45,835 nucleotides of DNA, taken from Candidatus Methanoperedens sp. (GTDB lineage Archaea > Halobacteriota > Methanosarcinia > Methanosarcinales > Methanoperedenaceae). Below, one piece after another: positions 39,614 through 45,835 of this stretch. The translations under genes were made by a program, and so were the position numbers. The stretch is from positions 1 through 45,835 of the forward strand of contig JAHFDG010000028.1 in NCBI GenBank assembly GCA_023249105.1, given 5' to 3'. The notes under the pieces are model-generated. The model searched no databases, had not been told where the DNA came from, and saw nothing but the letters and a program-made list of their open reading frames with translations. The stretch's first letter is position 1; the number at the start of each line of letters is the position of its first letter.

Positions 39614-39772
39614 ATGAAAGTTATTCATACACATATACGCGATGAAAAACACCTCCAGGGCTTGACTGAAGAGGAGAAGGTTTTTATTCGTAGATTCGCT
39701 AAACTAACAGCGAATATCATTTTAAAGGACCATGAAAAAAGCATTCGCCTATCTCCGGATATCAAACGATGA
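39614..39772 (+). CDS. Small basic protein overlapping the integrase start (52 aa)
   Basis: The frame MKVIHTHIRDEKHLQGLTEE continues EKVFIRRFAKLTANIILKDH and ends IRLSPDIKR. It begins 3 nt after the preceding stop and overlaps the integrase start by 41 nt. The composition is protein-like and helical, and the spacing suggests coupling with the integrase. Such short genes next to large serine integrases can encode directionality factors, but nothing here proves it. Confidence 0.5.
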   Translation: MKVIHTHIRDEKHLQGLTEEEKVFIRRFAKLTANIILKDHEKSIRLSPDIKR

Positions 39773-41354
39773 TCAAAGTAAGTTCTCTATTTCGGGCCAG
39801 CTGCTTTGTATTGAGGAGTATTGTAAAAGAAATAATATTACACTCATCAAAATATTTACTGATGACGGTTATTCTGCAAAGGATTTTAACCGGCCAGCCT
39901 GGAAGGATCTGCAATCTGTTTTAAAAAAGAATACTGTTGATTTTGTGATCGTATGGAAGTACGATCGCTTAATCCGGAATGCAGTTGAAGGATTGGTATT
40001 TGTTGAGCATCTTGAAAATAAATTGAACACTGTCCTGGTGTCGGTTATGGAAAATTATTCCATTGATCCTTCAGATCCTTATTTTTTTAAGCACCGGGCA
40101 GATATGTTTGTAGATGCTGAATTTGAACGGAGAAGAATTTCCGATCGCACTAAAATGGGATTGTGGTCAGGGAAGTCACAAGGTCGATATCTGCGTAAAG
40201 CTCCTTATGGTTATAAGAATGTTCGCGTTAAAGCGGACGGGCAAATTACTACTGAGCTGAGAAAGAAAGGTGTTGCTAATATGGATACAGCTCACATTGT
40301 TCCTGATCCGGAACAGGCTAAAATAGTACAGAATATTTTTAATGATTTCCTTGCTGGCCATACTTATGCTATGATACTAAATAGGGCTGTGTCAGCTGGT
40401 TTCCCGCTTACTGCAAAAGAAGTGATTAAACGTTTGCTTACGAATGAAGTTTATGCCGGGCTGATTAAAGTACCGGCATATAAAACAGCTGGTAAAAAAA
40501 CTATACCTGGTGTTCATGAAGCGATTGTTCCGGTGGATGTGTTTTGGAAAGCATATTATAAGGTTCAGGAGATCACTCGCCCTTCAGGACCAAAAATTAT
40601 GGATGAGAATTTACCGCTGCGCGGATTTATTCAATGTGAGAATTGTGGGGCTGGCCACACCGGAACTAAATGCAAGGGCAGATCTGCTTATTACTATTAT
40701 TACTGGTGCAATGTCTGCAGAGGAAAAAATTATCCTTCAGTAAGAGTTCAAAAGGATATCCAAAATATACTTTCCGGATTGTCATTGTCGCCTCGATTGT
40801 TAGAAGCATACAAAGGTGAATTAAAACTTATAGTATCCGAATCGTTGGAAGATAGTCAGTTAAGAATTGATCGAGAAAAGGGCGAAATGGAAACACTGGA
40901 GAAGAAACTTAAATCGATTGAGGAAAAGTTTATCGATGACCGTATCGATCAAAAAATGTTTCAAAAATGGTCCGTTCAGCTTAATACAGAATTGGCAAAA
41001 AAACGGATCTTGGTTTCTGATTTACAAGTGACCGGTGATGTTGATTTTATAATAGAAAAATATTTACCCTACCTAACAGATCTTAATGCCATTTACAACC
41101 AGGCCTCTATTCCGGATAAAATTGAGTTAATGAGATCGATCTTTCCGGGCGGTTTGAGTGTAAATCCTACCGGTTATCGAACCGCTTTGCTCGCTGATGT
41201 GTTTGCGCCAAATGCCTCGTCTTTATTGGGCTTATTGGAGGTAAAACAAAGCGGGGAACACTCTTTTTTAGGAGTATCCCCCGCGAAGGGTCGTTCATGG
41301 GGCTCAACTCGAACCATTTTAGAAGTAATTGAGAAAATATTAAAGGCTGCATAA
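39732..41354 (+). CDS. Large serine recombinase (integrase)
   Basis: This 540-aa enzyme should integrate and excise the phage. Catalytic Ser11 lies in YLRISNDDQ, and further active-site residues are in WKYDRLIRN and ERRRISDRTKMGL. The recombinase domain follows (APYGYKN ... TYAMILNRAVSAGFPLTAKE). A zinc ribbon (CENCGAG ... YYWCNVCRG) and a coiled coil (about 370-430) come next. No tyrosine integrase is present. The attP site should be within a few hundred bases but cannot be located from sequence alone. Confidence 0.95.
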   Translation: MKKAFAYLRISNDDQSKFSISGQLLCIEEYCKRNNITLIKIFTDDGYSAKDFNRPAWKDLQSVLKKNTVDFVIVWKYDRLIRNAVEGLVFVEHLENKLNTVLVSVMENYSIDPSDPYFFKHRADMFVDAEFERRRISDRTKMGLWSGKSQGRYLRKAPYGYKNVRVKADGQITTELRKKGVANMDTAHIVPDPEQAKIVQNIFNDFLAGHTYAMILNRAVSAGFPLTAKEVIKRLLTNEVYAGLIKVPAYKTAGKKTIPGVHEAIVPVDVFWKAYYKVQEITRPSGPKIMDENLPLRGFIQCENCGAGHTGTKCKGRSAYYYYYWCNVCRGKNYPSVRVQKDIQNILSGLSLSPRLLEAYKGELKLIVSESLEDSQLRIDREKGEMETLEKKLKSIEEKFIDDRIDQKMFQKWSVQLNTELAKKRILVSDLQVTGDVDFIIEKYLPYLTDLNAIYNQASIPDKIELMRSIFPGGLSVNPTGYRTALLADVFAPNASSLLGLLEVKQSGEHSFLGVSPAKGRSWGSTRTILEVIEKILKAA

Positions 41355-43116: not shown

Positions 43117-43146
43117 AAAAAAGCCTCCTGATCAGGAGGCTTTTTT
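43117..43146. terminator. Perfect 30-bp bidirectional terminator centred on TGATCA
   Basis: AAAAAAGCCTCCTGA is followed by its exact reverse complement ending TTTTTT. The GC-rich 9-bp core plus A/T-runs would stop transcription in both directions. Like the palindrome at 37580, it is centred on TGATCA and contains a GATC. Confidence 0.92.
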
Positions 43147-43170
43147 GTGGTGATCCCGGAGAGATAAGTA

Positions 43171-43286
43171 TGTCCTCCAGGATTAAAAAAACTCTGACAT
43201 CTTTTTAAAATAGAACACGATAGCATTCACTGGAGGACAATGTCTTTCAGAAAGCTATCGTGTTTTTTTTATTGTAAATGTCAGAG
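43171..43286 (+). ncRNA. Interleaved-stem structured RNA element upstream of dam
   Basis: Three perfect complementary pairs interleave. A: TGTCCTCCAG (43171-43180) with CTGGAGGACA (43230-43239). B: CTCTGACAT (43192-43200) with ATGTCAGAG (43278-43286). C: AACACGATAGC (43214-43224) with GCTATCGTGTT (43254-43264). A and C form an H-type pseudoknot or two exclusive hairpins. Eight Ts follow C on the forward strand, and seven Ts follow B on the reverse strand. Stem A covers a GGAGG and can hide it. It looks like an RNA switch or small RNA rather than chance. Confidence 0.75.
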
Positions 43287-43317
43287 GATCCAAATGTACA
43301 AAACTTATTATATATAA
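43240..43317 (+). CDS. Possible leader peptide ahead of dam (25 aa)
   Basis: The frame MSFRKLSCFFYCKCQRIQMY, ending KTYYI, starts 3 nt after GGAGG and stops 2 nt before the dam ATG. The GGAGG is unusual here, since most starts lack an SD, and it is inside the arm that pairs with 43171-43180. The frame could couple translation to dam. It is short, and no other evidence supports it. Confidence 0.4.
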   Translation: MSFRKLSCFFYCKCQRIQMYKTYYI

Positions 43318-43319
43318 AA

Positions 43320-44126
43320 ATGAAAACTCCTATTTCTTATTATGGTGGAAAGCAAAAGCTGGCCACTGCTATACTAAAATTGATACCTAAGCATACGCTT
43401 TATTGTGAACCTTTTATTGGAGGTGCGGCAATATTTTTTGCAAAGCATCCATCACCGGTAGAAGTGATCAATGATGTAAATAAAGAGATGATAAACTTTT
43501 ACCGGACCGTACAGAATGATTTTGTTTCCCTGGAAAAAGAAATTAGGATCACGTTGCACAGTAGAGATCTGCACCGTAAAGCAAATGTAATTTATCAGAA
43601 CCCGGATATGTTTTCGGAAATAAAGCGCGCCTGGGCTGTGTGGGTTTTATCGACACAGAGTTTCGCTTCGATGTTGGATGGCAGCTGGGGCTATGATGTA
43701 GGAGCTAATACAACAACAAAAAAGATAAGTAATAAACGCGATTCATTCACAGAGGATTACGCGATACGGTTGCAGAATGTACAGATTGAGTGTGCTGATG
43801 CATTAAGAATTATTCGGGCCAGGGATACTCCGGAATCATTCTTTTATTGCGATCCTCCGTACTACAATTCTGATATGGGTCATTACGATGGTTATTCAAT
43901 AGAAGATTATGAGGCGCTGCTTAAAACACTTTCTACAATAAAAGGAAAATTCTTATTAAGCTCATATCCTTCTGCAATACTTGCTAAGTATGCTACAGAG
44001 TTTGGGTGGCATCAAAAAGAGTTTGAGCAATCGGTTTCTGTTGCAAATAATAATGGGCCACAAAAGAAGAAAACAGAGGTATTAACGGCAAATTATTTTA
44101 TTGATTATTCGCTGCAGTTTGAATAA
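43320..44126 (+). CDS. dam: DNA adenine methylase (Dam family)
   Basis: The 268-aa protein starts MKTPISYYGGKQKL at 43320; a longer frame from 43278 would start inside the RNA stem and is less likely. Motif I is ISYYGGK followed by EPFIGGAAIFFAKH. Catalytic motif IV is DPPY at 178-181 (FFYCDPPYYNS). It should methylate adenine, probably in GATC or a related site. It may protect phage DNA from host restriction or regulate the TGATCA-centred palindromes in this genome. Confidence 0.92.
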   Translation: MKTPISYYGGKQKLATAILKLIPKHTLYCEPFIGGAAIFFAKHPSPVEVINDVNKEMINFYRTVQNDFVSLEKEIRITLHSRDLHRKANVIYQNPDMFSEIKRAWAVWVLSTQSFASMLDGSWGYDVGANTTTKKISNKRDSFTEDYAIRLQNVQIECADALRIIRARDTPESFFYCDPPYYNSDMGHYDGYSIEDYEALLKTLSTIKGKFLLSSYPSAILAKYATEFGWHQKEFEQSVSVANNNGPQKKKTEVLTANYFIDYSLQFE

Positions 44127-45824: not shown

Positions 45825-45835
45825 TGCGCTAGCAG
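45825..45835. repeat. Right copy of 11-bp terminal direct repeat
   Basis: TGCGCTAGCAG matches bases 1-11 exactly. With the left copy it brackets the whole window and would overlap if the molecule circularised. See the left copy for readings. Confidence 0.6.

Follow-up and report, generated by a model that had tools for sequence, protein, structure and literature searches.

A predicted pseudoknotted RNA gene on the minus strand beside a DNA-modification gene in Bacteroidota phages

The window, which is the whole stretch of 45,835 nucleotides that was analysed, looks like either a closed circle or the cos-type ends of a complete phage: both contig ends (positions 1-11 and 45825-45835) carry TGCGCTAGCAG, and a small and a gpA-type large terminase subunit are encoded at 108 and 756, respectively. 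Toward its right end, a D12-class adenine methyltransferase gene (dam) occupies positions 43320-44126 of the plus strand (PF02086, 1.3e-26; phrog_56, 2e-64). The region upstream of dam contains a perfect palindrome at 43117-43146 that reads as an intrinsic terminator in both directions, a GGAGG at 43232-43236, a 25-codon frame at 43240-43317 and several T runs, all of them listed in a preliminary description of this DNA and all confirmed as present. That description had also reported three exact complementary pairs, and these were verified: pair A (10 bp, 43171-43180/43230-43239), pair B (9 bp, 43192-43200/43278-43286) and pair C (11 bp, 43214-43224/43254-43264), which interleave across 43171-43286 in the order A-B-C-A'-C'-B'. 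Their combined 30 bp of interleaved perfect pairing compares with at most 24 bp in 2000 dinucleotide shuffles and with 23 in the highest-scoring 160-nt stretch found elsewhere in the window. Fold z-scores against shuffles were -7.7 for the plus strand and -6.7 for the minus strand. Taken as one unit, pairs B and C make up an imperfect inverted repeat of 37 nt (43192-43228/43250-43286). Two features had been overlooked, namely a weak fourth stem, D (43183-43190/43202-43209), that flanks an arm of B, and a minus-strand TAnnTTTG at 43298-43291.

Relatives of the element were sought in viral contigs at loci that encode relatives of the methylase. The same A-B-C-A'-C'-B' layout was found in about 90 of them, in sequence that is almost unrelated and with compensatory changes. 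An alignment of 16 elements in minus-strand orientation showed changes on both sides in 21 of the 26 pairs of C and A (13/17 model pairs in C, 8/9 in A); such changes filled 78 cells, as opposed to 23.7 in shuffles, a level reached by none of 500 shuffles. Pairing cells made up 93.3% of the total in these elements, compared with 74.9% in shuffles and 39-47% in slid controls. A covariance model, R1, recovered more than 40 minus-strand loci among 100 searched, and the conserved core of the present element (43164-43298) matches it at 86.8 bits. After further loci were added, A, B and C could all be assigned in 79 elements, and each arm was then paired with the partner region of another element. 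An arm's own partner was better than swapped ones in 77/79 elements for C, 59/79 for B, 30/79 for A and 29/67 for D, counts that are not independent events, since many elements are related to one another. The low value for A is explained by its conserved sequence, with which swapped partners pair as well. Otherwise it is mainly the stems, the promoter box and a short loop of AAGGC type that are conserved. Covariation in related phages was the check proposed at the outset, and compensatory change supports all three stems. R1 gave no match in 393 other Bacteroidota genomes under strict filters, so the element is patchy and mostly phage-borne.

The type of wobble, G.U or A.C, shows the strand of the RNA; helices were located with a score that treats the two alike. 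Read on the minus strand, helix A contained 101 G.U and 16 A.C cells, and A is thus predicted to pair as a minus-strand RNA. Stem D was similarly biased (35 G.U, 9 A.C), and there was little strand bias in stems B (34:23) and C (43:36). The reverse bias was observed for hairpin E, which lies within the loop of C and comprises A1, the loop arm of helix A, and the preceding AAGGC part; it holds 22 G.U and 83 A.C cells on the minus strand, the latter becoming G.U when the plus strand is read, and lacks covariation support. Hairpin E was also considered as a switch partner of A and exceeded shuffles in complementarity, yet its own partner won in only 10/79 swaps and the candidate was dropped.

TAnnTTTG is the -7 box consensus of Bacteroidota (PMC7366714). 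The box of the window (TACATTTG, 43291-43298, minus strand) lies about 4 nt before the first arm of stem B, and a strict match was found at the same place in 83 of 90 related elements. Because R1 itself contains the box, the test was repeated on loci recovered by the A1...A2 pattern alone: all 30 loci with a strong C hairpin (score of at least 15) had a box 20-51 nt upstream of C1, and 12 of 17 weaker candidates, mostly chance matches, had none. Upstream of the box, at a distance of 19-22 nt, TTG is over-represented. On the plus strand the motif is rare near the element, with four sites within -80 to +170 in 87 contexts, and no conserved plus-strand promoter was found there. At the other end, T makes up three or more of the five minus-strand bases that follow A2 in 62/79 elements. 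This run is missing from the window, and the bidirectional terminator at 43117-43146 stands in its place, the likely 3' end in this phage; a downstream partner for A2, that is, a second terminator arm, is in mild excess (7.7 versus 5.9 in shuffles). The minus-strand promoter, the wobble use and this terminator together point to an RNA gene of about 170 nt, running from approximately 43286 to 43117, that faces away from dam and is not its leader.

Judged from sequence, a structured RNA gene on the minus strand is very probably present. In 5' to 3' order its predicted arms would be B1 (43278-43286, at the 5' end), C1 (43254-43264, with imperfect pairing extending outward), A1 (43230-43239), C2 (43214-43224), D1 (43202-43209), B2 (43192-43200), D2 (43183-43190) and A2 (43171-43180). 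The long C hairpin would sit inside stem B, B2 in the loop of D, and A1, the loop of C, would pair with the 3' tail A2, so that both RNA ends would be tied into pseudoknots. The structured, pseudoknotted RNA proposed in the preliminary description therefore stands, with compensation in three stems; its assignment to a plus-strand dam leader does not, given the wobble of helix A and the minus-strand promoter.

No family in Rfam 15 reached its gathering score in the window, at the element of any of 18 relatives or in additional scans with relaxed settings, in agreement with the earlier remark that no known riboswitch class could be recognized. The best weak match across the full element, on the minus strand, was the Bacteroidota sRNA BTnc231 (RF04180), at 27.6 bits against a gathering score of 80.4. 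This match is largely driven by the terminator, BTnc231 differs in having no pseudoknot, and it matched in 0 of 100 related genomes and at none of the relatives. Phe_leader and similar weak matches covered only the terminator, and DNA similarity to phage records fell mostly in the terminator region, with nothing covering the element. A retron or DGR RNA was rejected, as no reverse transcriptase occurs among the window proteins scanned, which were the larger ones; the DGR of hankyphage has an RT-3 RNA of its own, located elsewhere. Rfam RT-17 and RT-3 RNAs, which are associated with reverse transcriptases, were seen in two relatives (L081, 924-1017; L379, 2552-2701), separate from the element. 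A literature search of open-access main text found no description of this RNA, and no paper was found under the name D12-methyl RNA. A palindromic, phage-linked candidate of a 2021 microbiome RNA survey (PMC8040213) might be the same RNA.

Further elements were obtained from two pattern searches that ignored the methylase and from one search of named genomes. In the first methylase-blind set, whose pattern was derived from methylase-linked elements and is not fully independent, 23 of 24 informative elements adjoin a DNA-modification gene; in the second set 25 of 28 do, and its three exceptions are all chromosomal. Several methylases of the second lineage were recognized by N-terminal sequence only. 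The adjoining genes are unrelated to one another: two lineages of D12 methylase, Mom (PF25680), ABC-GNAT and a thymidylate-synthase-like gene, often accompanied by a small protein weakly like Mor. The element is thus not confined to dam. Most elements end directly after the preceding gene and start 0-60 nt before the modification or Mor-like gene. Gene order varies between phages; the methylase gene lies on the element's other side at L240, L285, L299 and L189, and lysis genes take the place of the modification gene at L148. In the window, a large serine integrase (39732-41354) lies close to the RNA-dam cassette, and hankyphage and other relatives belong to the Mu-like, transposable phages; apparently the cassette of RNA and modification gene moves from one type of phage to another.

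Four further phages contain the element without annotation: hankyphage p00 (BK010646, 40548-40693, 85.2 bits), Winogradskyella phage Peternella_1 (77.6 bits), BKO1-TP1 and BX-TP1. For B. thetaiotaomicron jmh43, which is lysogenic for hankyphage, stranded RNA-seq is public (PMC12135933). As a forward test of the association with Mom, Mom-bearing phages were fetched by protein alone. An unannotated element was located on the minus strand directly before mom in both of the P. gingivalis phages that were inspected (83.6 bits) and in an Elizabethkingia phage (49.3 bits); it was absent from a Lactococcus Mom phage.

Alistipes-like genomes contain divergent copies that share the box, the stems and the T run. 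They are co-directional with, and directly before, comF (4 of 30 loci examined), comEC, and exonuclease/endonuclease-family, DUF2851, VWA and WG-repeat genes, and the RNA could be a leader of the following gene in these chromosomes. In the present window there is no gene downstream of the RNA on the strand from which it would be read, which excludes a leader role here. Chromosomal copies were recorded at L314 (2612-2738 and 3609-3751), L385, L386, L391-L393 and L395-L400; many, not all, are co-directional with the next gene, and several Alistipes-like chromosomes hold two to five copies each.

Comparative evidence shows the predicted promoter, strand, fold and conservation. What the RNA does is a matter of interpretation, and the account judged slightly more probable than not is that a small non-coding minus-strand RNA gene, divergent from the methylase gene, controls the neighbouring modification module. 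That this control is exerted by an antisense mechanism is more tentative, plausible rather than probable. A housekeeping-type Bacteroidota promoter (43298-43291) would start the RNA, which would be made in the lysogen and would repress the neighbouring DNA-modification gene. A plus-strand read-through mRNA into that gene would carry the exact complement of the RNA in its leader, the probable basis of repression, and modification would rise only once late transcription outran the RNA. An antisense RNA was among the options originally offered, and this one agrees with the minus-strand promoter and the wobble; the attenuator and Shine-Dalgarno (SD) switch offered with it do not. Against an antisense role, the partner gene would not be the same in every phage, as the four loci with the methylase on the other side illustrate, and a fold this elaborate would not be required. 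The lysis genes at L148 and the small strand bias of stems B and C also count against this account.

The main rival to antisense control, possible though rather unlikely, is that the minus-strand RNA has its target in the host, in trans, and not in the neighbouring gene, as a stable decoy or anti-defence RNA carried in one cassette with the modification genes; it may mimic the same-shaped chromosomal leaders before comF, comEC and other genes. A constitutive-type promoter, ends protected by pseudoknots, the occurrence beside modification enzymes that are unrelated and may lie on either side, and the architecture shared with 5' leaders in Alistipes-like genomes all speak for this. Cis control, however, needs an element that abuts a gene start, as this one nearly always does, and no conserved single-stranded target-binding sequence was found except the AAGGC-like loop. 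In a broader version, which we consider doubtful to a slightly greater degree, the element would represent an undescribed, multiply pseudoknotted class of Bacteroidota RNA that serves in chromosomes as the leader of DNA-uptake-type genes (comF, comEC, nuclease), and the free phage copies would be trans-acting mimics tied to modification cassettes for defence evasion.

Use of both strands, with a minus-strand regulatory RNA and a structured plus-strand leader as a co-evolving antisense pair, would account for a wobble bias that favours the minus strand in A and the plus strand in E, but it is improbable, as E has no covariation support and no conserved plus-strand promoter lies near the element. 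Still less probable is the plus-strand dam leader, an attenuator or SD-sequestering switch, favoured in the preliminary description. The wobble of hairpin E fits it, as do the eight Ts after C in this window, but a T run follows C in only 26/77 relatives, and E did no better than swapped partners. The stem A that was to mask the SD sequence would hold 101 A.C mismatches on the plus strand, and the promoter faces the other way. If dam were regulated in cis by a riboswitch or attenuator, the RNA would lie on the same strand as the gene, and a riboswitch would have conserved ligand-binding nucleotides; promoter and wobble place the RNA on the other strand, and what is conserved is mainly stems, A1/A2, the AAGGC-like loop and the box. 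The 25-codon frame overlies arms whose sequence varies freely among relatives, and the terminator proposed on the other strand, B/C with seven Ts, is not borne out in relatives, whose minus-strand T run follows A2. That the structure works as DNA (a cruciform, a recombination or packaging site) or only as back-to-back terminators is scarcely credible: the inverted repeats are strong and B and C nearly symmetric in wobble use, but the G.U bias of A and D and the fixed promoter box are strand-specific, and compensatory change is seen in a pseudoknot, a structure not open to a cruciform.

The predicted RNA can be set beside three known systems. Lambda OOP and P22 sar are phage antisense RNAs that form simple hairpins. 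The present RNA resembles them in being short, in having its own promoter on the strand opposite to a neighbouring phage operon and in ending at a terminator beside the previous gene, all features of an OOP-like cis-antisense RNA that the sequence contains; it differs in its crossing helices, its spread over many Bacteroidota phages and its place with DNA-modification genes. The antisense RNAs of EcoRI-type restriction-modification loci likewise involve antisense transcription beside a DNA-modification gene, as predicted here, but are intragenic reverse transcripts that are not known to have a conserved fold. Control of DNA-modification enzymes in time is necessary, and the RNA is a compact candidate for it, common to enzymes without common ancestry. 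If so, it would be an RNA gene tied to the marking of phage DNA against restriction, missed by current annotation in common gut and oral phages that include hankyphage and the P. gingivalis prophages. In phage Mu, mom is controlled by the Com protein and by an RNA stem over the mom start. Here too an RNA structure and a DNA-modification gene of a phage are neighbours at the right end of the genome, and the gene is Mom itself at L166 and in the P. gingivalis phages; the Mu stem is on the mom mRNA, whereas the RNA predicted here lies on the opposite strand and has a separate promoter. The annotated start of Mom in the P. gingivalis phages (L434, L435) reaches into the RNA element at 2339-2500 and is probably wrong, because homology begins only at 2501.
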